A stretch of 44,919 bases of DNA from positions 1 through 44,919 of the forward strand of contig CAIQRS010000268.1 in assembly GCA_903874275.1 (NCBI GenBank). Direction: 5' to 3'. Position 1 is the first letter of the stretch, and every line of letters begins with the position of its first letter. The notes under the pieces were generated by a model that saw only the letters and a list, made by a program, of their open reading frames with translations, ran no database searches and was not told the DNA's origin. Position numbers and translations under genes: made by a program. This document shows, in pieces, positions 19,433 to 30,113 of the stretch. This stretch comes from an uncultured Anaeromyxobacter sp. Lineage in GTDB: Bacteria > Myxococcota > Myxococcia > Myxococcales > Anaeromyxobacteraceae.

Positions 19433-20035
19433 TCAGCGGCTCGAACCGCCGCGCCGCTGTGGCGGCTGCTGGCGATTCGCCGGGAGGCTCGAAGAGGGCG
19501 GCTCGGGCGCCGGCTGGGGCGCGATCGAGGGCGGCGGCTCGAGCGAGAAGTCGTAGAGGGCCACTTCACCAGGGGTGAACGAGCCCCCCGGCACCACCTG
19601 GCCGGGCAGGGCCTTCCGGACGCACTCCACGAGCGCCGCCGTGGCGCCGCCCCAGGCCTTCACCGTGGAGCCGAGGACCCCGTAGCCGCCGCTCGACTGC
19701 GCCTCGAGCTCGAGCGTGAGGACGGCCGGGAGGCTGGAGTGCGGAGGATGGCTCCTGAAGCAACCGGCCAGCGGTTCGGAGAGCGCGAGCCTCACGCGGC
19801 CGGACGGCAGCTGCACGTACCGGGGCCCGGGCGGATACCCACCCGGAGCCGCTCCCGGCGCGGCCGCCGGAGCCGGATCCGGAGCGGGAGCCACCTCCAC
19901 CCGGCCAGCCGAGGGCGCGGTCGGGCGCGGTGGCGCGGCCCGGTCGGGCCCGTCTCCCACGAGGAGCACCGCCACCACTGCGATCACGCCCAGGAGGAGG
20001 ATGGCCCCGACGGCCAGGATCAGGAGCTTCTTCAC
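19433..20035 (-). CDS. membrane-anchored AgmX/PglI C-terminal-domain-like protein
   Basis: 200 residues from a GTG overlapping the regulator stop (GTGA). Residues 2-27 are a single membrane helix, followed by a Pro/Ala-rich linker (about 30-75) that could cross the periplasm. The globular part (about 75-165) contains LSEPLAGCFRSH, a central strand pair (AVLTLELEAQSSGGYGVLGSTVKAWGG) and ALVECVRKALPGQVVPGG. Two Cys flank a beta hairpin, the pattern of the myxobacterial AgmX/PglI C-terminal domain and distantly of TonB-C. A second Pro-rich tail closes the protein. Third gene of an operon with a histidine kinase and an NtrC-type regulator, suggesting it is an output or co-sensor of that system. 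Confidence 0.55.
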   Translation of the reverse strand: MKKLLILAVGAILLLGVIAVVAVLLVGDGPDRAAPPRPTAPSAGRVEVAPAPDPAPAAAPGAAPGGYPPGPRYVQLPSGRVRLALSEPLAGCFRSHPPHSSLPAVLTLELEAQSSGGYGVLGSTVKAWGGATAALVECVRKALPGQVVPGGSFTPGEVALYDFSLEPPPSIAPQPAPEPPSSSLPANRQQPPQRRGGSSR

Positions 20036-21402
20036 GGCGCGTCCTTGTCCTTCGTAGCCTCCACCAGGCCCAGGCGCGCCAGCTTCTCGTAGAGCGTGGA
20101 GCGGTGCAGCCCGGAGAGCTCGGCGGCCTTGCCGACCGCCCCGCCGGCCTCGCGCAGCAGGTCCTCCAGGTACCTGCGCTCCCAGGCGTCCCGGGCGGCG
20201 CGGTAGCGCCCCTCCCCGGCGATCTCGGCGGCGCGGGCCGCGATCTCGGGCGGGAAGTCGCCGACGGCGAGGTGGTCGCCGCGCGCCAGCAGGAGCGCCC
20301 GCTCGATGGCGTGCTCCAGCTCGCGGATGTTCCCGGGCCAGGAGTGGTCGAGGAGGGCGCGCATGGCCTCCGCGTCGGGCATGAGCGGTGGCCGGGAGAG
20401 GCGCACCGCGTGCTTCTGCACCATGTGCTCGACGAGGAGCGGGATGTCCTCGCGCCGCTCCCGCAAGGGCGGCAGCCGCATGGGGACGACGCGAAGCCGG
20501 TACCAGAGGTCCTCGCGGAACTTCCCCTCCTGCACCGCCTTCTTGAGATTCTCGTTGGTGGCCGCCACCACCCGCACGTCGGCCTTCTGCGGCTTGCGGC
20601 TCCCCACCGGGATGAACTCGCCGTCCTGGAGGACCCGCAGGAGCTTGGGCTGGAGGAGCGGGGAGAGCATGCCGATCTCGTCGAGGACGAGCGTCCCCCC
20701 CTGGGCCTCGGCGAAGAACCCCGGGCGGGCCTGGTCGGCGCCGGAGAAGGCCCCCTTCTCGTGCCCGAAGAGCTCGCTCTCGGCCAGGTTCTCCGGGATG
20801 GCGCTCATGTTGAGGGCCAGGTAGGGCCCCTTCGACCGGCCCGAGAGGCCGTGGATGGTCCGGGCCAGCACGTCCTTGCCGGTCCCGCTCTCCCCCTCGA
20901 TGAGCACCGGGACGTCGGACGGGGCGATGCGCTCGGCGATGGAGACGATCTCCTTCATCGACTGGCTCTTGCCCACCATCCCCTGCACCGAGAAGGTGCC
21001 CGACAGCTGCTGCTTGAGCCGGCGGTTCTCCCGCCGCAGCGAGCCGTGCTCGCCGGCCCGCTGCACCATGACCTCGAGCTCCTCCGGGTCGAAGGGCTTC
21101 TTGAGGTAGTCGAAGGCGCCGGCCTTCATGGCCTCCACGGCGGTCTCCACCGTGGCGAAGGCGGTCATGATGATGACCGGGACCTCCGGGACCTTGGCCT
21201 GGAAGCGCTTCAGCCCCTCGAGCCCGTCGATGCCCGGCATGCGCAGGTCGGTGACGATGACGTCGAACTCGGCGCGGTCGAGGGCCGGGAGCGCCTCGGC
21301 GACCGACCCGAAGTCGTAGACGTCGAAGCTGCGTGCGATGGCGCGCTTCACCATCTGCCGCGCCGAGTCGAGGTCGTCGATCACCATCACCTGCAGCTTC
21401 AT
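20032..21402 (-). CDS. sigma-54-dependent response regulator, NtrC family
   Basis: 456 residues. Receiver domain 1-115 with phospho-acceptor Asp 52 (VIVTDLRMPG), Thr 80 and Lys 101/102. The AAA+ domain has Walker A GESGTGKD (170-177), the sigma-54 contact loop GAFSGA (217-222, Ser in place of the usual Thr), Walker B GGTLVLDEIG and the arginine-finger segment. A Fis-type helix-turn-helix ends the protein (GGAVGKAAELSGLHRSTLYEKLARLGL). It activates sigma-54 promoters when phosphorylated, presumably by the kinase whose stop overlaps its start (ATGA). Candidate targets inside the window are the two sigma-54 promoters near 26.6 and 28.1 kb, but nothing here proves that. Confidence 0.95.
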   Translation of the reverse strand: MKLQVMVIDDLDSARQMVKRAIARSFDVYDFGSVAEALPALDRAEFDVIVTDLRMPGIDGLEGLKRFQAKVPEVPVIIMTAFATVETAVEAMKAGAFDYLKKPFDPEELEVMVQRAGEHGSLRRENRRLKQQLSGTFSVQGMVGKSQSMKEIVSIAERIAPSDVPVLIEGESGTGKDVLARTIHGLSGRSKGPYLALNMSAIPENLAESELFGHEKGAFSGADQARPGFFAEAQGGTLVLDEIGMLSPLLQPKLLRVLQDGEFIPVGSRKPQKADVRVVAATNENLKKAVQEGKFREDLWYRLRVVPMRLPPLRERREDIPLLVEHMVQKHAVRLSRPPLMPDAEAMRALLDHSWPGNIRELEHAIERALLLARGDHLAVGDFPPEIAARAAEIAGEGRYRAARDAWERRYLEDLLREAGGAVGKAAELSGLHRSTLYEKLARLGLVEATKDKDAP

Positions 21403-22865
21403 GCCTTCTCCCTGGCCCCGGGCAGCCGGATGGTGAACGTGGCCCCCGCCCCGGGCTGGCTCTCCACCGAGACCGAGCCCCCGTGGGCCTCGATCGCCTG
21501 CCGCACGATGGCGAGGCCGAGCCCCGTGCCGGTGGCCTTGGTGGTGTAGAAGGGTTCGAAGACCTTTGCACGGGTCTCTTCGTCCATGCCCGGACCGTCG
21601 TCCCGGACCTGGAGGAGGAGCTCCTCCCCGGCCCGCTCCGCCGAGTACCGGACCACCCCGCCGCCGCCCGGTTGCAGGGCCTGGATGGCGTTCAGCCCCA
21701 GGTTCATGAAGGCCTGGCGCAGGAGCTCCGGGTCGATGCGGATCTCCGGCGCGTCCGGGGCGTAGCGCAGCTCCACCGCCACCGCGGCGGCCTTGGCGGC
21801 CGGCCCGAGCACCTCCACCACCTCGGCGAGCACGGGCTCGGCCGACTGGACCTGGGCCTTTCCCGGCCGGGCCCGCGCGAAGACCAGGAAGCGCTCCAGG
21901 AGCCCCGCCGAGCGGACCACCTCCCGCTTCACCGCCTCCAGGTCGGGGCGGTTCGGGTGCCCCTCGGGCAGCTCGCGGAGCGCCACGGCGTTGAAGCCGC
22001 GAATCACGTTGAGTGAATTTCCCAGCTCGTGGGCGAAGCCGGCGGCGATGCCGCCCAGGGTGGCCAGCCGGTCGGCCCGCAGCACCTCCCGGGTCTTCTG
22101 CTCGACCCGCTCCTCCAGCGAGGCGATGAGCCGCTCGTTCTCCTGCCGCCGCTCCGAGAGCCGGAGCGACATGCGGTTCACCGCGGTCACGAGATCCGCC
22201 AGCTCCCGGTCGGGCGGCACCGGAAGCTGCACCCCGCTCTCCTGGCCGAGCCTCTCGGCGGCCTCCACCACCTGCTCGAGCGGCCGGGCGATGCGCATGA
22301 GGAAGTAGCTGGCCAGCATCAGGCCGACGGCGATCCAGAAGCCGGCCACCACCGCCACGCCCCAGGCCAGCCGCCGCGCGTCGCCCACCACCTCGTCGTG
22401 CGAGTAGTCGAGGTAGAAGGCGCCCACCAGCTCCCCTTCCCGCAGGACCGGGGCGCTGGCCACGATGCCCTCCGGGTGGATCAGCCGCTGCAGGGCCTCG
22501 AGCGGGGTGGCCCCGGGCTGGAAGATGCTGGGCGGGGCGTGCTCGGGACAGGGCTCCTTCCGGACCGACGCGCAGGCCACCAGCGTGCCGCTCCGGTTCA
22601 CCACCCAGACCCGGTCGAAGGGGCCGGCCCGGAGCACGCGCTGCACCAGCGCCTCGAGCGGCTCCTTCCCCCCGGGCTCGACGGAGGAGGGAAGCAGCCA
22701 GCGCGAGGCCGACGGGGCCGAGGAGGCGGCGATGGCGCTCCCCTCGCGGAGCAGCAGCTCCTGGCCGCGCAGGAGGTCCCGCCAGAGCGCCACCGCCGTC
22801 ACCCCGGTGGTCGCGAAGACCACCAGGCCTGCGATGAGGACGAAGAGCTTGAGGCGGAGGGTCAC
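21399..22865 (-). CDS. membrane sensor histidine kinase
   Basis: 488 residues from GTG 22865. TM1 (about 5-28), a periplasmic sensor of about 135 residues holding two Cys (C98, C106), TM2 (about 167-190), a HAMP-like linker (MRIARPLEQVVEAAERL), a coiled coil, then the H-box FAHELGNSLNVIRGF with phospho-His about 279. The catalytic domain has N-box NLGLNAIQAL, G1 DDGPGMDEE, F-box FEPFYTTK and G2 GTGLGLAI. It pairs with the overlapping NtrC-type regulator. Its start is 39 bp from the start of the dodecahaem cytochrome gene on the other strand, so both promoters lie in or next to this tiny gap. Signal unknown; the paired Cys could be redox-sensitive. Confidence 0.93.
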   Translation of the reverse strand: MTLRLKLFVLIAGLVVFATTGVTAVALWRDLLRGQELLLREGSAIAASSAPSASRWLLPSSVEPGGKEPLEALVQRVLRAGPFDRVWVVNRSGTLVACASVRKEPCPEHAPPSIFQPGATPLEALQRLIHPEGIVASAPVLREGELVGAFYLDYSHDEVVGDARRLAWGVAVVAGFWIAVGLMLASYFLMRIARPLEQVVEAAERLGQESGVQLPVPPDRELADLVTAVNRMSLRLSERRQENERLIASLEERVEQKTREVLRADRLATLGGIAAGFAHELGNSLNVIRGFNAVALRELPEGHPNRPDLEAVKREVVRSAGLLERFLVFARARPGKAQVQSAEPVLAEVVEVLGPAAKAAAVAVELRYAPDAPEIRIDPELLRQAFMNLGLNAIQALQPGGGGVVRYSAERAGEELLLQVRDDGPGMDEETRAKVFEPFYTTKATGTGLGLAIVRQAIEAHGGSVSVESQPGAGATFTIRLPGAREKA

Positions 22866-22904
22866 TATCGAAGCCCGGGAGCGTTCGACTAGAATGCCAC
22901 CCCG

Positions 22905-23795
22905 ATGCGGCGGAGGTACCTTTTTTACGTGTTCGTGGTGGTGGGGTGCCTCCTCTTCCTGGCCGCGGTGGCCGGGGCCTGGCGCCTCAAGCGCTTCGTC
23001 GACAGCGACCCCCGCCTCTGCGCGCAGTGCCACCGGGCCAGCCCGGAGTTCTCGCTCTGGGCCGGGGGCACCCACAAGAGCGTGGCCTGCCAGCGCTGCC
23101 ACCATTCCTCCCCGGAGCAGGGGCTCGCCATGCTGCGCGCCTTCGTGGCCGGCCGCTCGCCGGCGGGCACCAAGACCCACGCGCCGGTGGAGATCGGCTC
23201 CTGCGCCTCCTGCCACCTCTCGCACGACGGAAACTGGCCCCAGGTCGGCAATTCCCGCGGCCACCGGATCCACTTCGAGGAGAAGAAGATCGCCTGCGTC
23301 GCCTGCCACGCCGAGGGGATGCACGGCTTCCATCCGCTCACCGAGAGCTGTCGGAAGTGCCACGGGGGGCACACCGTGCGGGCGCAGGGCATGGCGAAGC
23401 TCCACTGCTTCGTCTGCCACGACTTCCTCTCGCCCGACCCGGGCCTCCTGCCCACCCGCCGCGACTGCCTGCGCTGCCACCGCTCCGAGGGGGTCCACCC
23501 GGCCCGCTTCTCCGACGCGGCGCCGATGCAGTTCGACTGCGGCACATGCCACAAGCCCCACGCCGCCACGCCCCGGGAGGCGATCGCGAGCTGCACCGGT
23601 TGCCACGTGGTGGCCGAGACGGCGGGGAAGCACGCCCGCCACCTGAAGCAGGCCTGCACCACCTGCCACGCCCCGCACCTCTGGGCGGCGGGGCGCGCCG
23701 AGTGCGTGGCCTGCCACGCCGCGGCCGACCGGCACGCCGACGGAAAGGGGTGCACCACCTGCCACCTCTTCCGCTCGGCACCCGCGCGGAAGTAG
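22905..23795 (+). CDS. membrane-anchored dodecahaem c-type cytochrome
   Basis: 296 residues with twelve CXXCH haem-attachment motifs, starting near residues 39, 62, 100, 131, 149, 168, 188, 212, 230, 251, 267 and 283: one per about 22 residues. A single N-terminal helix (about 6-26) anchors it, as in NapC/NirT quinol dehydrogenases, and the first haem follows directly. Many further His residues can serve as distal ligands. By family analogy it takes electrons from the quinol pool or another cytochrome and relays them across the periplasm. A TAGAAT hexamer ten bases before the ATG could be a -10 box, which would give a very short leader. Divergent from the histidine kinase gene. Confidence 0.92.
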   Translation: MRRRYLFYVFVVVGCLLFLAAVAGAWRLKRFVDSDPRLCAQCHRASPEFSLWAGGTHKSVACQRCHHSSPEQGLAMLRAFVAGRSPAGTKTHAPVEIGSCASCHLSHDGNWPQVGNSRGHRIHFEEKKIACVACHAEGMHGFHPLTESCRKCHGGHTVRAQGMAKLHCFVCHDFLSPDPGLLPTRRDCLRCHRSEGVHPARFSDAAPMQFDCGTCHKPHAATPREAIASCTGCHVVAETAGKHARHLKQACTTCHAPHLWAAGRAECVACHAAADRHADGKGCTTCHLFRSAPARK

Positions 23796-23840
23796 ACGGG
23801 ACGGGTCCACGGAGAGGGCGGCGAGGCGGATTTGCCGCTC

Positions 23841-23854
23841 TGCGTCTTGACGCA
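23841..23854. promoter_or_regulatory. inverted repeat ahead of the small membrane protein gene
   Basis: TGCGTC-TT-GACGCA, in the 113-bp gap between the cytochrome stop and the next start, 55 bases before the ATG. Either a short stem or a dimeric operator. No T-run follows, so an operator is the likelier reading. Confidence 0.35.
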
Positions 23855-23908
23855 GGTGGACGAAATCCCGAACCTCTCCGGACCGTCTCCTACGGAGGTC
23901 TTCCCCAC

Positions 23909-24229
23909 ATGCGCTTCATGGCACTGATCGTGACCCTCACCTCGTGGCTCATGATCTCGACCTTCGCGTTCCCGCAGAGCGGCCAGTCCTTCCTGCTCTG
24001 CTGGATCGTGTCCCTGCTGGTCTCCGGGATCTCGATCGCCTCGCCGGGGAGGATGAACCTGCGCCTCATCATCGCCGGGCTGGCGTTCATCCTCTTCTGG
24101 TCGGCCATCCTGCTCCCCGACGTCTCCTTCGCGGCACGGGTGAGCAACGGCGCCGTCGGGGCGCTGCTCTTCCTGCTGGGGATCGTCCCCTCGCCGCTGC
24201 GGCGGGACGAGGCCAACTCCCGGGCCTAG
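23909..24229 (+). CDS. small four-helix membrane protein, SPW-repeat-like
   Basis: 106 residues from the ATG at 23909, which has a clear GGAGGT ribosome-binding site. Four hydrophobic helices are connected by short loops: ALIVTLTSWLMISTFAF, FLLCWIVSLLVSGISIA, NLRLIIAGLAFILFWSAIL and VSNGAVGALLFLLGIV. The arrangement, with Trp in helices 1 to 3, resembles two copies of an SPW-type two-helix repeat. Its function is unknown. It has its own ribosome-binding site and a separate upstream gap, so it need not be cotranscribed with the cytochrome. A strong bidirectional terminator follows. Confidence 0.72.
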   Translation: MRFMALIVTLTSWLMISTFAFPQSGQSFLLCWIVSLLVSGISIASPGRMNLRLIIAGLAFILFWSAILLPDVSFAARVSNGAVGALLFLLGIVPSPLRRDEANSRA

Positions 24230-24250
24230 AGCGCATCCCGCAAAGCAGGT

Positions 24251-24290
24251 CGGCCCCGGCCGCCCCTCGTGGAGGGAGCGGCCAGGGCCG
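24251..24290. terminator. bidirectional terminator between convergent genes
   Basis: Sixteen to seventeen base pairs in three blocks (CGGCCC/GGGCCG, GGCCGC/GCGGCC, CCCTC/GAGGG) with a 3-base loop. It lies 22 bases after one stop and 23 bases after the other. Confidence 0.75.
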
Positions 24291-24312
24291 GATGGGTCGT
24301 TCCCGGATTCGA

Positions 24313-26007
24313 CTACGGGTGCGGGTCCTTCTTCTTCTCGACGAGCTCCTCGTACTGCCCGCGGTGCTCCTCCTCGAGCATGGCGTGGCTCATCTTGCCG
24401 GTGAGCCAGACCCAGTTCATGGGGAAGATCGAGGGCTTCAGGTGCGCGTTGTAGAAGTGCACCACGAAGAGGAAGAGCAGGGCCAGCGTGGCCTCCTCGC
24501 CGTGGATGATCTGGGCCGAGGTGAGGAGCCAGTGGGGCGCGTAGGTGGCGAAGAAGACCGGGAACCAGAGCACGAACCCGGTGCCGACCATCATGATCAT
24601 GCCCCAGAACACCGCCCAGTAATCGAACTTCTCCAGGTAGCTGTACTTGCCGTAGGCGGGGCGATCCCCGCCGGCCAGCATGTAGCGGATGTTGTCCCGG
24701 ATCTCGCCGACGTCGCGCGGGCCGGGGAGCATGGAGAAGGCCAGCGTCCGCCGGGCCCCGTGCAGCACGAGGTAGAGGAGGTGGTAGCCGCCGGAGATGA
24801 TGATCATCACCGCGGCGATGCGGTGCAGGAGCGCGGCCCCGTGCGGCCCGCCGAAGAGGCCGAGGATCTTCCGCGAGGTCTCGATGGCCTCCGGGGAGCC
24901 GGCGCCGCGCAGCGGCCACCCGGTCACGCCGAGGAGGATGACGCCCACCAGCATGAGCCAGTGCTGGGCGCGCTGGTGCAGGTCGAAGCGCTGGACGAAC
25001 TGCGACTCCTTGGCCGGGTCGTGACCGTGCCCGGCCTTCCGCATGCGCACCTTGTGGCGGATCTCTGCGAACAGATCGAGGGCCACGTGGCCGGCGAAGA
25101 AGATCAGGGTGAGGGCGGCCAGCCAGGAGAAGACCACGTGGAGGAAGTGGGGGATCTTGCTCTCGCTGTGCGCGGGGTCGTTGTGGGCGACCAGCTTGGC
25201 GAAGTTGTCGTTGGCCCCGGCGTGGCAGCGGCCGCAGGTCCCGGCGCGGTTCTTCCCGGCCACGGGGGAGGCCGGGTCGGTCTTGGCCAGGATCTTGTGG
25301 GCGTTGGGGCGGAGCACCCCCTTCCCGTCCTTCTCGGCGGCGCCGTGGCAGTCGGCGCAGGCGGGGGCCAGCGCCGAGCCGGTGTTGACGAGCCGGCCGT
25401 GGATCGAGTCGTGGAAGGTGACCACCACGTCGCCCTTCAGCCCGGCCTTCTCGACGTAGGCCGGGTCGGCGTGGCACTTCTCGCAGCGCTCGGAGATGGC
25501 CCGCGCGCCGGTGGCGAACGTGGCGCCGGCCGGGGCGGGGGTGGCCACCCCCTTCACGATCTCGTGGACCGATCCGTGGCAGCTCGCGCAGGTGGGGCCG
25601 GCCACCTTGGCGTCGCCCTTCGCCCACTTGCCGTGGACGGAGGCGGCCACCTGCTCGACCACCTCGGCGTGGCAGTTGCCGCAGGCCAGGTAGGCGCGCG
25701 GGGCCGTGCTGGCCTTGAGCGCCTCGGAGCGGGCCACCAGTGCGGCGTCGGCGCCGGTGAGCGGCGCCAGCTCGTGCGGCCCGGGGGCCTGGTAGTCGGC
25801 GTGGCAGTCGGTGCAGCCGAAGGAGGCGTGGACCGACTTGCCGAACTCGGCGGGTCGGACGCCGACCTCGCCCGGCTTCGACGCCACGTGGCAGTCGAAG
25901 CAGGCCTGGTTGGGGTCGGGCGCGGCCGCCTTGGCGGGAGCGTCGGCCGCGGCGGCGGCCATCGGGAACGTCAGGAGCAGCGACAGGAGGAGGGTCTTCA
26001 TTTGCAT
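24313..26007 (-). CDS. heptahaem cytochrome c - cytochrome b fusion (CbcL-like quinol oxidoreductase)
   Basis: 564 residues (or 562 from the ATG at 26001). Signal peptide of about 21 residues, then seven CXXCH motifs near 36, 65, 109, 140, 175, 217 and 258. From about residue 285 come five membrane helices of a HydC/FdnI-type cytochrome b, with His residues inside or flanking the helices (HFLHVVF, FAGHVALDLF, QRAQHWLML, LLHRIAAV, GGYHLLY, VVHFYNAHL) for two b haems. This c-plus-b architecture is that of CbcL of Geobacter, which passes electrons from menaquinol to the periplasm for low-potential metal reduction; that homologue carries more haems. The role here is inferred from architecture. 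Confidence 0.88.
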   Translation of the reverse strand: MQMKTLLLSLLLTFPMAAAAADAPAKAAAPDPNQACFDCHVASKPGEVGVRPAEFGKSVHASFGCTDCHADYQAPGPHELAPLTGADAALVARSEALKASTAPRAYLACGNCHAEVVEQVAASVHGKWAKGDAKVAGPTCASCHGSVHEIVKGVATPAPAGATFATGARAISERCEKCHADPAYVEKAGLKGDVVVTFHDSIHGRLVNTGSALAPACADCHGAAEKDGKGVLRPNAHKILAKTDPASPVAGKNRAGTCGRCHAGANDNFAKLVAHNDPAHSESKIPHFLHVVFSWLAALTLIFFAGHVALDLFAEIRHKVRMRKAGHGHDPAKESQFVQRFDLHQRAQHWLMLVGVILLGVTGWPLRGAGSPEAIETSRKILGLFGGPHGAALLHRIAAVMIIISGGYHLLYLVLHGARRTLAFSMLPGPRDVGEIRDNIRYMLAGGDRPAYGKYSYLEKFDYWAVFWGMIMMVGTGFVLWFPVFFATYAPHWLLTSAQIIHGEEATLALLFLFVVHFYNAHLKPSIFPMNWVWLTGKMSHAMLEEEHRGQYEELVEKKKDPHP

Positions 26008-26077
26008 TAGGTCCGGAGGGAGGCCCCGTGCAGGGGGTGTGCCGGAGCGGCGCAGGATAAAGGTTTGGATTTCAAAA

Positions 26078-26204: not shown

Positions 26205-26510
26205 TTAGGCCTTCGTCTCCTGGGTGGCGGCCTTCGCCGGAGCGACGGAGGTGGTCAGGACGCCGACCGCTGCGCCGGCGACCGCGCCGCCGACCGCGAA
26301 GAGGGAGCCGACGCCCAGGGCGCCCATCACCATGCCGAACATGATGAGCGAGCGGACCAGGAAGGTGGGCTGCACCGGCGTCCCGAAGATCCCGCCGGCC
26401 AGCAGCACGCCCGCATAACCGCCGTAGAGCAGGGCCGGGAGGAGGGCGATGGCGAGGAAGAGGGCCAGGCCGACTGCGGCGCCGATGATGCTGGGGGTCT
26501 TGCGGTTCAT
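26205..26510 (-). CDS. small membrane protein, copy 1 of a duplicated pair
   Basis: 101 residues with two long hydrophobic stretches (about 7-42 and 50-85), probably three or four helices rich in Gly and Ala, and a short polar tail. Residues 1-85 are identical to the product of the gene at 27760-28065; only the last 16 residues differ (TTSVAPAKAATQETKA here). A GGAGAA ribosome-binding site precedes the ATG. It has its own sigma-54 promoter and terminator, so it is a monocistronic unit. I recognise no family. The tandem of identical membrane parts with divergent tails hints at a shared membrane function with tail-specific contacts. Confidence 0.8.
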   Translation of the reverse strand: MNRKTPSIIGAAVGLALFLAIALLPALLYGGYAGVLLAGGIFGTPVQPTFLVRSLIMFGMVMGALGVGSLFAVGGAVAGAAVGVLTTSVAPAKAATQETKA

Positions 26511-26621
26511 GGTGTTCTCCGTGTTTTCCGTGAGCGTTGGTAGACGGGAGGGGTTTCTGCACCTTCCCTGCCAACATCCGGGTCCAGGAATTCCGGGCGG
26601 TTGACGCCTGGCACTGTCGGG
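26257..26621. repeat. 365-bp direct repeat, copy 1 (gene plus promoter)
   Basis: Matches 27812-28178. The coding part differs at only about eight positions, all synonymous. The promoter part keeps the sigma-54 elements and two upstream blocks at the same distances. The offset is 1555 bases within the gene and 1557 upstream, reflecting a two-base difference in the leader. Confidence 0.85.
26557..26574 (-). promoter_or_regulatory. sigma-54 (RpoN) promoter, copy 1
   Basis: Read on the minus strand: TTGGCAGGGAAGGTGCAG, with the GG and GC pairs ten bases apart, as in TGGCAC-N5-TTGCA. The GC element is 49 bases before the ATG at 26510. The same architecture precedes the paralogue. Confidence 0.8.
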
Positions 26622-26633
26622 AATCCCCGACAG
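26590..26633 (-). promoter_or_regulatory. candidate enhancer (UAS) region, copy 1
   Basis: Contains ATTCCGGGCGGTTGACG, shared with copy 2 at the same distance from the promoter, and a perfect palindrome CTGTCGGG-AATC-CCCGACAG (26614-26633), whose left part TGTCGGG is also conserved in position. The palindrome is 17 bases past the SET gene stop and could alternatively terminate it. Confidence 0.5.
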
Positions 26634-26649
26634 GGCGGCGGGGGAGACG

Positions 26650-27072
26650 TCAGGGCTCAGTTGCTCCCGAAGCTAACGGCGTGTCGCCGGCCATCTTGGC
26701 CATCAGGTCTGCGTCGTGGAACTCCTCGTAGTCCACGGTGAGCTCCTCGCCGATCTCGATGTCCCGGATCGCGACGTCGTGCCCGCCGTCCGGCGCGCTC
26801 GTGCCGCGGATGCTGGGTGTCCGGGAGTGGTTCATGAACTTCGCGATGTCGCCGCAGAGGACCCGCTTCTTCAGCACGGGGTGCAGGTAGGTGTAGTGGA
26901 CGAGCAGGCTGCGCAGGTCGTCCCGCGCGCCTGCCACCGCGGCGGGGTCGAGGAGTTGATCCACCCCGGGCACGAACTCCCAGGTCCGCGTCCCGGCGGG
27001 GATCCGTGCATGCGCGAACACGCCCCAGCCGTGGATCGGGCTCCTTCCCAGCCTGACGTCGACGAGAAACAT
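26650..27072 (-). CDS. small SET-domain protein (putative lysine methyltransferase)
   Basis: 140 residues from ATG 27072 with a GGAGG ribosome-binding site. The SET-domain landmarks appear in order: SPIHGWGVFAHARIPAGT (SAM-binding start), a central variable insert, FMNHSRTPS (the NHS motif of the pseudoknot) and GEELTVDYEEF (catalytic Tyr motif). This is a minimal stand-alone SET protein without pre-SET or post-SET zinc domains. Bacterial SET proteins methylate protein lysines, but the target here is unknown. It begins 38 bp after the stop of the unknown membrane protein gene, so the two are likely cotranscribed, and they are enclosed by the duplicated sigma-54 genes. Confidence 0.83.
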   Translation of the reverse strand: MFLVDVRLGRSPIHGWGVFAHARIPAGTRTWEFVPGVDQLLDPAAVAGARDDLRSLLVHYTYLHPVLKKRVLCGDIAKFMNHSRTPSIRGTSAPDGGHDVAIRDIEIGEELTVDYEEFHDADLMAKMAGDTPLASGATEP

Positions 27073-27110
27073 GGAGACCTCCAGAGTGGAATTCGACCAT
27101 GAGTTCCGTG

Positions 27111-27530
27111 CTACGCCTTGCGCTTCTCTTCCACCTCCTTGGCCAGCTCGGCGAGCTTCGGGTCCTCGATCTTCTCGCCTTCGGCCGCCTTCTCGTCGGT
27201 GGCCTTGCCCGTCATGTGCGCGGCGCCAGGAGCCCAGCCCGGGGTGATGGTCGCGCCGAGGTCCTGCGCCGAGCGGCTGAACGCGCCGGTCACTCCGCCG
27301 ACCGCCGTCTTCGCCGCGAGGTACAGGCCGATGAAGGGGAGGAAGACCACCATCAGGCCGCCGAGCACCGGCATGATGGCCAGGGCCGCCGCGGTGTTCA
27401 GCTTCACGTAGTGCTCGGAGGAGGCGCCGGGAAGCTTCTGCCCGTCCTTCTCGATGGGGAAGATCTCCCAGTTGCTCCTGGAGAGGTAGTACCCGCCCTG
27501 CACTGCGCTGCCGCCGTTGATGGTCTTCAT
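27111..27530 (-). CDS. unknown membrane protein with charged C-terminal tail
   Basis: 139 residues from ATG 27530 (ribosome-binding site AGGGAG). The N-terminus is polar (GGYYLSRSNWEIFPIEKDGQKLPG). One or two hydrophobic helices (about 46-80, TAAALAIMPVLGGLMVVFLPFIGLYLAAKTAVGGV) follow, then a segment with Trp and His, and a highly charged tail rich in Lys and Glu (about 110-139) that probably forms a helix or coiled coil. No family recognised. First gene of a probable operon with the SET-domain protein. Its Lys-rich tail would be a natural methylation substrate, but that is speculation. Confidence 0.7.
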   Translation of the reverse strand: MKTINGGSAVQGGYYLSRSNWEIFPIEKDGQKLPGASSEHYVKLNTAAALAIMPVLGGLMVVFLPFIGLYLAAKTAVGGVTGAFSRSAQDLGATITPGWAPGAAHMTGKATDEKAAEGEKIEDPKLAELAKEVEEKRKA

Positions 27531-27691
27531 GGTCTGTTCTCCCTTTCTGAGGAGGAGTGTGCTCCATCGAGCGGGCGACCGATATTGGGAGCAGTCCCGA
27601 GGCGGCGGACATTGAATCCGGGTGGAGGCTCGGGAAAACACCCCAACCCGGATGGGTGCCCAGGCGCCCAGGCACCATTCACCGAACGCGA

Positions 27692-27719
27692 AGAGGCCAG
27701 CCCTCGCGGACTGGCCTCT
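27692..27719 (-). terminator. hairpin terminator of the second sigma-54 gene copy
   Basis: Perfect 9-bp stem AGAGGCCAG/CTGGCCTCT with a 10-base loop, 41-68 bases after the stop at 27760. No T-run follows. The rest of the gap 27531-27691 shows no gene; it must hold the promoter of the unknown membrane protein, but I see no sigma-54 match there. Confidence 0.55.
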
Positions 27720-27759
27720 CGTCTCGTCGGGCCCCTGGCCCGCAGTGAACGTCCTGAAC

Positions 27760-28065
27760 TTACGACTTCGTTGCGGCCGGGGCAGCGGCCCTGCGGGCCG
27801 GGGTCTCGGCGAGGACGCCGACCGCGGCGCCGGCGACCGCGCCGCCGACGGCGAAGAGGGAGCCGACGCCCAGGGCGCCCATGACCATGCCGAACATGAT
27901 GAGCGAGCGGACCAGGAAGGTGGGCTGCACCGGAGTTCCGAAGATCCCGCCGGCCAGCAGCACGCCCGCGTAGCCGCCGTAGAGCAGGGCCGGGAGGAGC
28001 GCGATGGCGAGGAAGAGGGCCAGGCCGACTGCGGCGCCGATGATGCTGGGGGTCTTGCGGTTCAT
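27760..28065 (-). CDS. small membrane protein, copy 2 of a duplicated pair
   Basis: 101 residues, identical to the 26205-26510 product through residue 85; the tail differs (AETPARRAAAPAATKS). Hydrophobic segments and ribosome-binding site (GGAGAA) are the same as in copy 1. It has its own sigma-54 promoter and hairpin terminator. On its upstream side it is divergent from the LytS/LytTR two-component pair. The near absence of non-synonymous change between copies means either recent duplication, gene conversion or strong constraint on the membrane part. Confidence 0.8.
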   Translation of the reverse strand: MNRKTPSIIGAAVGLALFLAIALLPALLYGGYAGVLLAGGIFGTPVQPTFLVRSLIMFGMVMGALGVGSLFAVGGAVAGAAVGVLAETPARRAAAPAATKS

Positions 28066-28178
28066 GGTGTTCTCCGTCGGTCCGTCGTTTGGGTTGATAG
28101 ACGAGGGGAACTACTGCACCCGGCTTGCCAGGTTGGCGGCAGCCTGATTCCGGGAGGTTGGCGGTGTGGGATGTCGGG
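27812..28178. repeat. 367-bp direct repeat, copy 2 (gene plus promoter)
   Basis: Partner of 26257-26621, same orientation. Recombination between the two would excise the SET-domain and unknown membrane protein genes. Sequences beyond both edges are unrelated, apart from partial matches. Confidence 0.85.
28114..28131 (-). promoter_or_regulatory. sigma-54 (RpoN) promoter, copy 2
   Basis: Read on the minus strand: CCTGGCAAGCCGGGTGCA, GG and GC ten bases apart; GC is 51 bases before the ATG at 28065. Just downstream, GTCTATCAAC matches GTCTACCAAC of copy 1. Confidence 0.8.
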
Positions 28179-28192
28179 GATTCCAGATTCCA
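28147..28192 (-). promoter_or_regulatory. candidate enhancer (UAS) region, copy 2
   Basis: ATTCCGGGAGGTTGGCG starts 31 bases, and TGTCGGG 56 bases, from the GC element, exactly as in copy 1. Two tandem GATTCCA units (28179-28192) replace the palindrome arm. The rest of the roughly 300-bp gap (28193-28365) shows no gene, only a small GGCCT/AGGCC hairpin (28222-28233) and the ribosome-binding site of the kinase. Confidence 0.45.
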
Positions 28193-28365: not shown

Positions 28366-29421
28366 ATGATCGAGGGCACGGTGCCGACCGAGGGACGAAA
28401 GCGAAGCGTGTGGTGGGTGGATCCATGGTGGACGAGGCCGCTCGTGCCGCTCCGCTGGCTCGCGCCTCCGCTCCTCCTCCTGAACACGTTGGTCGCGTAC
28501 GCGGCGTCGCTCAACCCCGGAGGCCCGGTCTGGGAACGGGTCGAGGGCCTGGGAGCAGGCTTCGCCTTCGGCGCCATCCTGATGTTCCTGCACTGGGGCA
28601 CGCGCACGGCCGGGCGCGGCGTCGCACGCGTCGTCTACCTGGGCGCCATGGCCACCTCCGTGGCCACGGTGGCCTTCCTCCTGCGGGAGGCCGTCCGGGG
28701 CTTCTCCGCGGGGGTCACCGGGGAATCGCTCCCGTCCTACCCGGGCTGGTCTGGCCTCGCCACCTGGGCCTTCGGCAGCCTCGTCATCGGCATTGTCCTC
28801 GACCAGGTCGACAGGCGCCGCGCCCAGGCCGAGCTGCTCGCCCGCCAGCTCCGCGAGGCCCAGGACGCCGCGCTTCGCGCCCGGCTTGCCCCCCACTTCA
28901 TCTTCAACGCGCTCGGAACCCTGCAGGCCCAGATCGAGAAGGACCCTGCCGCGGCCACCGACACCGCAGACCGGCTGGCCCGCCTCTTCCGGCAGGCGCT
29001 CTCCGCCGCCGGGCGGCCCCTCGTGCCGCTGCGCGAGGAGCTCGAGTTCGTCGAGGCCTACCTGGGCATCGAGCGGGCCAGGCTTGGCCATCGACTCCAG
29101 GTGAAGATCGACGTGCCCGAGGAGCTGGAGGAGATCGAGATCCCGCCGCTCTGCCTCCAGACATTGGTCGAGAACGCGGTGCAGCACGGCATCGCACCGC
29201 GCGAGGACGGCGGCGAGATCTGGATCCGGGCCCGCCGCGCCGGACCGGGGGAGAATCCCGGGATCGTGCTCTCCGTGGACAACCCGCTCGCCCCGTCGTC
29301 GCGTCCCGGGACCGGAACGGGGCTCGAGGCGCTGCGGGGTCGGCTTCGCAACCCGGGCGACCTCACCATCTCCTCGGCAGCCGGGGCCTTCCACGCCGAG
29401 TTCTGGTGGAGCGCGGCGTGA
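28366..29421 (+). CDS. LytS/YehU-type sensor histidine kinase
   Basis: 351 residues. Four hydrophobic helices in the first 150 residues (VPLRWLAPPLLLLNTLVAYAA, FAFGAILMFLHWG, VYLGAMATSVATVAFLL, LATWAFGSLVIGIVLDQ) form a membrane sensor with little exposed loop. A coiled coil leads to the His_kinase domain: ARLAPHFIFNAL with the phospho-His in PHFIFN, characteristic of the LytS family. An ATPase domain follows with N-box LVENAVQHGI and a glycine loop GTGTGLEALRGRL. Upstream GGAG is the ribosome-binding site. Its stop overlaps the start of the LytTR regulator. The ligand is unknown. It lies divergent from the sigma-54-driven small membrane protein gene. Confidence 0.9.
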   Translation: MIEGTVPTEGRKRSVWWVDPWWTRPLVPLRWLAPPLLLLNTLVAYAASLNPGGPVWERVEGLGAGFAFGAILMFLHWGTRTAGRGVARVVYLGAMATSVATVAFLLREAVRGFSAGVTGESLPSYPGWSGLATWAFGSLVIGIVLDQVDRRRAQAELLARQLREAQDAALRARLAPHFIFNALGTLQAQIEKDPAAATDTADRLARLFRQALSAAGRPLVPLREELEFVEAYLGIERARLGHRLQVKIDVPEELEEIEIPPLCLQTLVENAVQHGIAPREDGGEIWIRARRAGPGENPGIVLSVDNPLAPSSRPGTGTGLEALRGRLRNPGDLTISSAAGAFHAEFWWSAA

Positions 29422-30113
29422 ACGGCTGCCCGCTGCGCATCGTGGTGGTGGAGGACGAGCCGCTCGCGCTGGCCCGGCTCTGCGACCTCCTCGCCGAGCA
29501 GCCGGGGGTCGAGGTGGTCGCACGGGCAGCGAACGGCCGGGAGGGGCTCGCCGCCGTGGCCGCGCACCTCCCCGACGCGGTCTTCCTCGACGTGGAGATG
29601 CCGGGGATGAGCGGGACCGAGCTCATGCACGTGCTCCCCGCGCCGCGCCCGGAGGTGGTCTTCGTGACCGCCTTCCCGCAGCACGCGGTGGAGGCCTTCG
29701 CCGGAGGGGCGGTGCACTACCTGCTGAAGCCGGTGAGCCGCGTGGGGGTGGCCCAGGCGCTGTCGCGCCTGCGGCCCAAGGACGACCCGCTGCAGGAAGC
29801 GTGGCTGCGCATCCCGGCGCGGCGGAGGGGTGGGACGCGGCTGCTCCGGCCGGAGGAGGTGGACGCGCTCGTCGCCGACCTGGGGGACTGCGCGGCCTGG
29901 ACCGCGGAGGGGGAGCTGCCGGTGGACGGGACGCTCGCCCACTGGGAGGAGAGGCTGGAGTCGAGCGGGTTCGTGCGTGTGCACCGGAAGGCGCTGGTGC
30001 GGCTCGCGGCGGTGAGGGAGATCTCGTCGGACGACGAGCTCGTCCTGGGTGGGGGGAGGATCCCCGTCAGCCGGCGAAGGCTGGAGGAGCTACGGAAAAG
30101 GTTCCGGGGGTAG
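29418..30113 (+). CDS. LytTR-family response regulator
   Basis: 231 residues from a GTG that overlaps the kinase stop (GTGA); a second in-frame GTG lies four codons earlier. The receiver domain holds the acidic pair VVVEDEP, phospho-Asp in AVFLDVEMPGMSG, Thr in FVTAFPQ and Lys in YLLKPVS. The C-terminal LytTR DNA-binding domain (about 125-231) contains the typical SSGFVRVHRKALVRLAAVREI and GGRIPVSRRRLEELRKRF segments. LytTR regulators bind pairs of short direct repeats, so nearby targets would be recognisable if the motif were known. Works with the upstream LytS-type kinase. Confidence 0.92.
   Translation: MNGCPLRIVVVEDEPLALARLCDLLAEQPGVEVVARAANGREGLAAVAAHLPDAVFLDVEMPGMSGTELMHVLPAPRPEVVFVTAFPQHAVEAFAGGAVHYLLKPVSRVGVAQALSRLRPKDDPLQEAWLRIPARRRGGTRLLRPEEVDALVADLGDCAAWTAEGELPVDGTLAHWEERLESSGFVRVHRKALVRLAAVREISSDDELVLGGGRIPVSRRRLEELRKRFRG

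Follow-up and report, generated by a model that had tools for sequence, protein, structure and literature searches.

A 44,919-nt contig (C268) of the 5.07-Mb genome of an uncultured Anaeromyxobacter sp., referred to here in its entirety as the window, carries two copies of a gene for a 101-residue membrane protein, M101, with a SET-domain gene and a gene for a 139-residue membrane protein between them. This arrangement raises the question of which genes M101 works with and what controls it: does it form a unit with the genes enclosed by its two copies, or does it belong to a different system encoded nearby?

M101 is a dispersed, unnamed multi-copy family

The two 101-residue open reading frames, copy A (26205..26510, minus strand) and copy B (27760..28065, minus strand), have residues 1-85 in common, as a sequence-only reading of this DNA had reported. 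Their nucleotide sequences agree at 246 of the first 255 positions but at only 25 of the last 51. The source genome contains six M101 copies, and a protein search recovered M101 in 23 of the 24 genomes of the bacterial family; one relative gave nine matches, partial ones included, and the others mostly gave two. Draft genomes probably contain more copies than were counted, because contigs end in or beside M101 genes, as was seen for C15, C63, C137 and C143 of genome G016 and for C329 of genome G020.

M101 matched no Pfam or NCBIfam model, and a Foldseek search against the PDB returned only matches with E>3 and no useful fold; on these two grounds, membership in a known family was ruled out. 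Literature searches retrieved no paper describing the protein, and its sequence contains no haem motif. An AlphaFold2 model predicts a two-helix hairpin with helices at residues 5-42 and 50-87 (mean pLDDT 84). M101 is a dispersed, unnamed multi-copy family. A second conserved location lies beside a hisC-like (histidinol-phosphate aminotransferase) gene (L144, L158, L160, L161, L163, L164); the copies there are away from any cytochrome gene, and their promoter layout is unchanged where checked.

M101 genes share a sigma-54-type promoter and fixed upstream sites

Each copy in the window is preceded by a GG-N10-GC box of the sigma-54 (-24/-12) type, TGGCAGGGAAGGTGCA for copy A (26558..26573, minus strand) and TGGCAAGCCGGGTGCA for copy B (28115..28130, minus strand; pattern search). 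The distance from the end of the box to the ATG is 47 bases in copy A and 49 in copy B, close to the 49-51 bases given earlier. Two further upstream blocks, described in the same reading, are likewise present at equal promoter distances in both copies. The outer block is a palindrome and putative activator site whose centre lies 50 bases upstream of the box; it is perfect in copy A (GTCGGGGATTCCCGAC, 26616..26631, minus strand) and degenerate in copy B (ATCTGGAATCCCCGAC, 28173..28188, minus strand). The middle block, CAACC-N-CCCGGAAT, reads CAACCGCCCGGAATTC in copy A (26588..26603, minus strand) and CAACCTCCCGGAATCA in copy B (28145..28160, minus strand) and is kept across the M101 upstream regions of the family. 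Over the 106 positions that run from 90 bases before the box to its end, the copies agree at only 54; because these matches are concentrated in the palindrome, the middle block and the promoter, the blocks represent a footprint that goes beyond the trace of a recent duplication.

Across 47 distinct M101 upstream regions, a TGGCA-N7-TGCA sigma-54 box was found in 41, compared with 2.2% of shuffled sequences. Of the six regions that lack it, three belong to the second gene of a tandem pair, and others to copies that seem truncated or lie near contig ends. In 38 of the 41 boxed copies, the centre of a GTCGGG-N4-CCCGAC palindrome is found 48-50 bases upstream of the box. A weaker palindrome is present roughly 20 bases beyond it, at 67-73 bases; 30 of 40 sequences score at least 8/12 at this position, whereas only 2-9 of 40 do so at other positions. 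The spacing between box start and ATG ranges from 44 to about 100 bases, whereas that between palindrome and box is fixed, which is the pattern expected of an activator site.

Scans of the source genome, conducted as pattern searches, found the perfect GTCGGG-N4-CCCGAC sequence only twice in the whole 5.07 Mb, both times upstream of an M101 gene, and found the combined upstream-site and promoter pattern at all six M101 genes. When the search was extended to 24 genomes, the three-block layout occurred almost only at M101, with a few other matches, some of them at contig ends, that were assigned to no gene. The source genome encodes a single RpoN (PF04552, E=1.5e-64, at C180). Sigma-54 control of M101 is a well-supported prediction from these patterns, and their conservation, both inside and across phyla, lends strong support to the earlier proposal that RpoN drives the duplicated gene.

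M101 is linked to cytochrome and two-component genes

In several Anaeromyxobacter species, M101 stands first in a series of genes whose other members code for a bc fusion, an NrfH-like multihaem cytochrome, a histidine kinase and an NtrC-type regulator. The window contains every one of these partner genes at 20032-26001, with the gene for the multihaem cytochrome inverted, as it also is elsewhere in the genus. The bc fusion (24313..26001, minus strand) combines seven CXXCH motifs and a membrane domain resembling Ni_hydr_CYTB, formate dehydrogenase gamma and cytochrome b561 in one chain; a sigma-54-like box, CGGCACACCCCCTGCA, lies upstream of it (26029..26044, minus strand), and similar boxes precede many orthologues. 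Adjoining the fusion, in a conserved arrangement, is the gene for a membrane-anchored cytochrome with 12 CXXCH motifs (22905..23795, plus strand). This protein resembles the NrfH/NapC quinol-oxidising family in its N-terminal anchor and first haem region (TIGR03153, E=1e-5) and differs from NrfH in scoring far below the model's cut-off and in having many more haems. The membrane histidine kinase (21399..22865, minus strand; 488 residues from a GTG start) is conserved in the cluster, and the NtrC-type sigma-54 response regulator (20032..21402, minus strand) completes it.

The partner gene set recurs in the flanks of 10 of the 41 other M101 loci. Among 195 Myxococcota genomes, M101 is present in 26, and strong bc-fusion orthologues, defined by a strict threshold (E <=1.1e-60) chosen after the table had been seen, occur in exactly those 26; weaker bc-fusion matches occur without M101 in seven further genomes. 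Family member G011 (92% complete) lacks both M101 and the bc fusion. Fisher tests of the association gave p ~1e-33 (strict) and 3e-26 (loose) over all genomes, and 1e-6 and 1e-4, respectively, outside the family, values that are inflated by genome relatedness. The conserved partners of M101, which went unmentioned in the earlier reading, are the bc fusion, the 12-haem cytochrome, the histidine kinase and the NtrC-type regulator.

Nitrospirota relatives carry the same promoter type and another palindrome

A profile scan of named genomes recovered M101 relatives with 28-43% identity from many Nitrospirota and one member of the Desulfobulbaceae. All 20 lead genes in these organisms have a TGGCA-N7-TGC box (once TGT), and in nearly all of them TTTGCA-N4-TGCAAA occurs as one palindrome or two, with centres some 51 and 80 bases upstream; the 12 boxless relatives are mostly second genes of tandem pairs. 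The 20 boxed lead genes with their different palindrome thus indicate that sigma-54 control has been conserved and the enhancer sequence has not. The neighbouring genes differ among Nitrospirota loci: they encode an NrfH-like cytochrome with ten haems, a heptahaem protein accompanied by a cytochrome b on its own chain, or NrfD/FeS proteins. An NtrC-type regulator is often nearby, and a multihaem gene lies within the examined flank at 17 of 33 loci. Beside the NtrC-type regulator at four Nitrospirota loci (L185, L187, L193, L195) there is also a glycine-rich membrane ORF of about 94-112 residues, which is not M101.

The response regulator of the operon is the candidate activator

The regulator in the window has the receiver aspartate (VTDLRMPG), a Walker A motif (GESGTGK), the GAFSGA loop and a Fis-type helix-turn-helix; across orthologues the loop reads GAFTGA or GAFSGA, and the latter also occurs in DVU3305 (PMC4641369). 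Orthologues encoded beside the bc fusion are 70-92% identical within the family and about 50% identical in two distant Myxococcota. The recognition region reads GLHRSTLYEKL in Myxococcota versus GIDLATLYRK in Nitrospirota, a difference that runs parallel, as a correlation, to the palindrome type (GTCGGG versus TTTGCA). The layout of the sigma-54 enhancer has been kept between phyla while its sequence has changed, probably along with the DNA-binding helix of the regulator. From these observations we infer that the operon's own response regulator activates M101.

It is also conceivable, if rather unlikely, that the regulon is of this same type and that M101 answers to an enhancer-binding protein other than the regulator of the cytochrome operon. 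In Anaeromyxobacter proper, a sigma-54-like box precedes the bc gene but the upstream repeats differ from those of M101, and one genome, G008, has another sigma-54 activator gene just upstream of M101, two observations that would fit a separate activator. Against it, in three genomes of genus g5 whose cytochrome cluster lies apart from M101 (L237, L238, L246), the bc operon carries a related palindrome together with a sigma-54 box; the palindrome type tracks the recognition region of the operon's regulator across phyla; and this regulator is the only one recurrently linked to M101/bc loci. The G008 gene (L019, contig C420, ~2.4-3.1 kb) encodes a different activator with a GAFTGA loop and is immediately upstream of M101; the standard M101 promoter was not found at this locus.

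Proposed role of M101 in a quinone-linked cytochrome module

On balance, we lean towards a sigma-54 regulon governed by the operon's own response regulator, in which a quinone-linked cytochrome module is made together with M101 as its helical-hairpin membrane companion. This reading starts from what the genomes contain, namely the family, its promoters and upstream sites, the operon and the co-occurrence, and would add to it a binding regulator, a signal and a physical role for M101. The membrane histidine kinase would sense a respiratory or redox cue and phosphorylate the NtrC-type regulator encoded in the cytochrome operon, which would then occupy the two palindromes, some 50 and 70 bases before the -24 element, and promote transcription by sigma-54. 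Its target would be M101 and, in some genera, also the bc/cytochrome operon. M101 would thereby be produced on demand as a small hairpin of the inner membrane, alongside the multihaem cytochromes, and may serve the bc-type complex as a subunit with an accessory or membrane-organising function; the extra copies in the genus would raise its dose. Such an accessory or organising role appears the most likely and most economical one in this genomic context. Against a direct part in the complex, M101 has neither a haem motif nor a fold match. Further points against the overall reading are the differing repeats before the bc gene in Anaeromyxobacter, the other activator gene in G008, the roughly half of Nitrospirota loci whose examined flank shows no multihaem gene, and the seven genomes with a weaker bc homologue and no M101.

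Somewhat less probable than a separate activator is a membrane-stress response resembling phage-shock, in which M101 would be made through sigma-54 under envelope stress and the link to cytochromes would be secondary. A small, hydrophobic, sigma-54-driven protein would suit such a response, as would the many copies away from cytochromes, at the hisC site and at about half of the Nitrospirota loci; the near-perfect co-occurrence of M101 and the bc fusion in Myxococcota and the operon linkage with cytochromes in two phyla argue against it.

The regulon with M101 as a companion of the cytochrome module can be taken one step further, to a tentative proposition that we would hold with distinctly less confidence: in Myxococcota, Nitrospirota and some Desulfobacterota, the quinone-linked complexes of multihaem cytochromes may have M101 as a hitherto undescribed core component in the membrane, whose sigma-54 control was kept across phyla while regulator and enhancer changed together, and whose promoter-carrying copies were amplified in one lineage.

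Relation to known cytochrome systems

In the CbcBA system of Geobacter sulfurreducens, the b and c parts are encoded by separate genes, unlike the fusion in the window, and the regulator, BccR, is sigma-54-dependent. CbcBA is a bc-type inner-membrane cytochrome that functions near the energetic limit (Joshi et al. 2021, cited in PMC12307469), and the bc fusion resembles it in being a bc-type inner-membrane cytochrome. CbcL of the same species has c and b domains in one chain, carries nine c haems and serves the step between quinone and periplasm (PMC9129911). The fusion in the window is likened to it by domain make-up, a multihaem c domain plus a membrane b domain in a single chain, and differs in having seven c haems; the available text of PMC9129911 makes no mention of an M101-like companion of CbcL.

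A parallel in regulation is the Ohc octahaem cytochrome operon of Desulfovibrio, which encodes a membrane cytochrome and has a linked sigma-54 activator gene, DVU3142, with a predicted promoter and activator sites (PMC4641369). The module in the window likewise couples a membrane cytochrome operon to a linked sigma-54 activator gene; DVU3142, however, is a one-component regulator, whereas the regulator here belongs to a two-component pair. Sigma-54-run membrane cytochrome operons with a linked activator had thus been predicted already (PMC4641369), and the new element is the uncharacterised protein M101; the excerpted text of that paper contains no description of a dispersed family of small membrane genes under the Ohc sites.

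An unannotated membrane protein family is hereby placed in a respiratory context and given a regulator that can be tested; the existence of cultivated Anaeromyxobacter species makes both amenable to experiment. If M101 does work in bc-type complexes, it would be an overlooked component of electron transfer from quinone to cytochromes.

The SET-domain and 139-residue genes are judged to be bystanders

The SET-domain gene (26650..27072, minus strand; 140 residues, Pfam SET E=4e-12) and the gene for the 139-residue membrane protein with a Lys-rich tail (27111..27530, minus strand) are indeed located between the M101 copies, as first described. The SET gene starts 38 bases after the 139-residue gene on the same strand, and its NHS and ELTVDY motifs are intact. 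The earlier idea of a four-gene module containing both is contradicted by their distribution. The SET gene is single-copy in the source genome, has relatives in 9 of the 24 family genomes, in unrelated places, and lies beside none of the 41 other M101 loci; the 139-residue gene is near one of the 41, and in G015 the region joining M101 to the bc fusion contains neither gene. The SET module was rejected on both co-occurrence and position, the failure of its genes to occur together in relatives being an outcome that the earlier reading had itself named as refuting it.

The 139-residue protein comes from another multi-copy family, with nine matches in the source genome, and across the 195 genomes the two proteins overlap in distribution within the bacterial family and not beyond it. 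Its gene copies lack a sigma-54 box, bar one chance-level match among distant relatives, and have a different conserved block instead, so shared RpoN control was rejected for this gene; of the proposed RpoN control of the membrane parts, the portion concerning M101 is supported and that concerning the 139-residue protein is not. That the genes form a stress- or envelope-responsive unit, with the SET protein methylating lysine-rich or membrane neighbours, is therefore very improbable: adjacency, a common strand and close spacing in the window speak for it, and the intact catalytic motifs are the one point in favour of lysine methylation, but the scattered SET distribution and the boxless 139-residue gene both oppose it. 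The placement of the two genes between the M101 copies looks lineage-specific, and we judge them, from these comparisons, to be local passengers.

The block upstream of the 139-residue gene (27531-27641, minus strand), with copies in L091-L110, reads approximately CCGGAATCAA ... CTCGGGA.CTCTCCCAATATCGG, and is perhaps a promoter for another sigma factor. The 139-residue genes frequently occur in tandem pairs. Divergent from M101 copy B, at 28366-30113 (plus strand), the window also encodes a histidine kinase resembling LytS (Pfam His_kinase E=8e-20) and a response regulator that is likely of the LytTR type.
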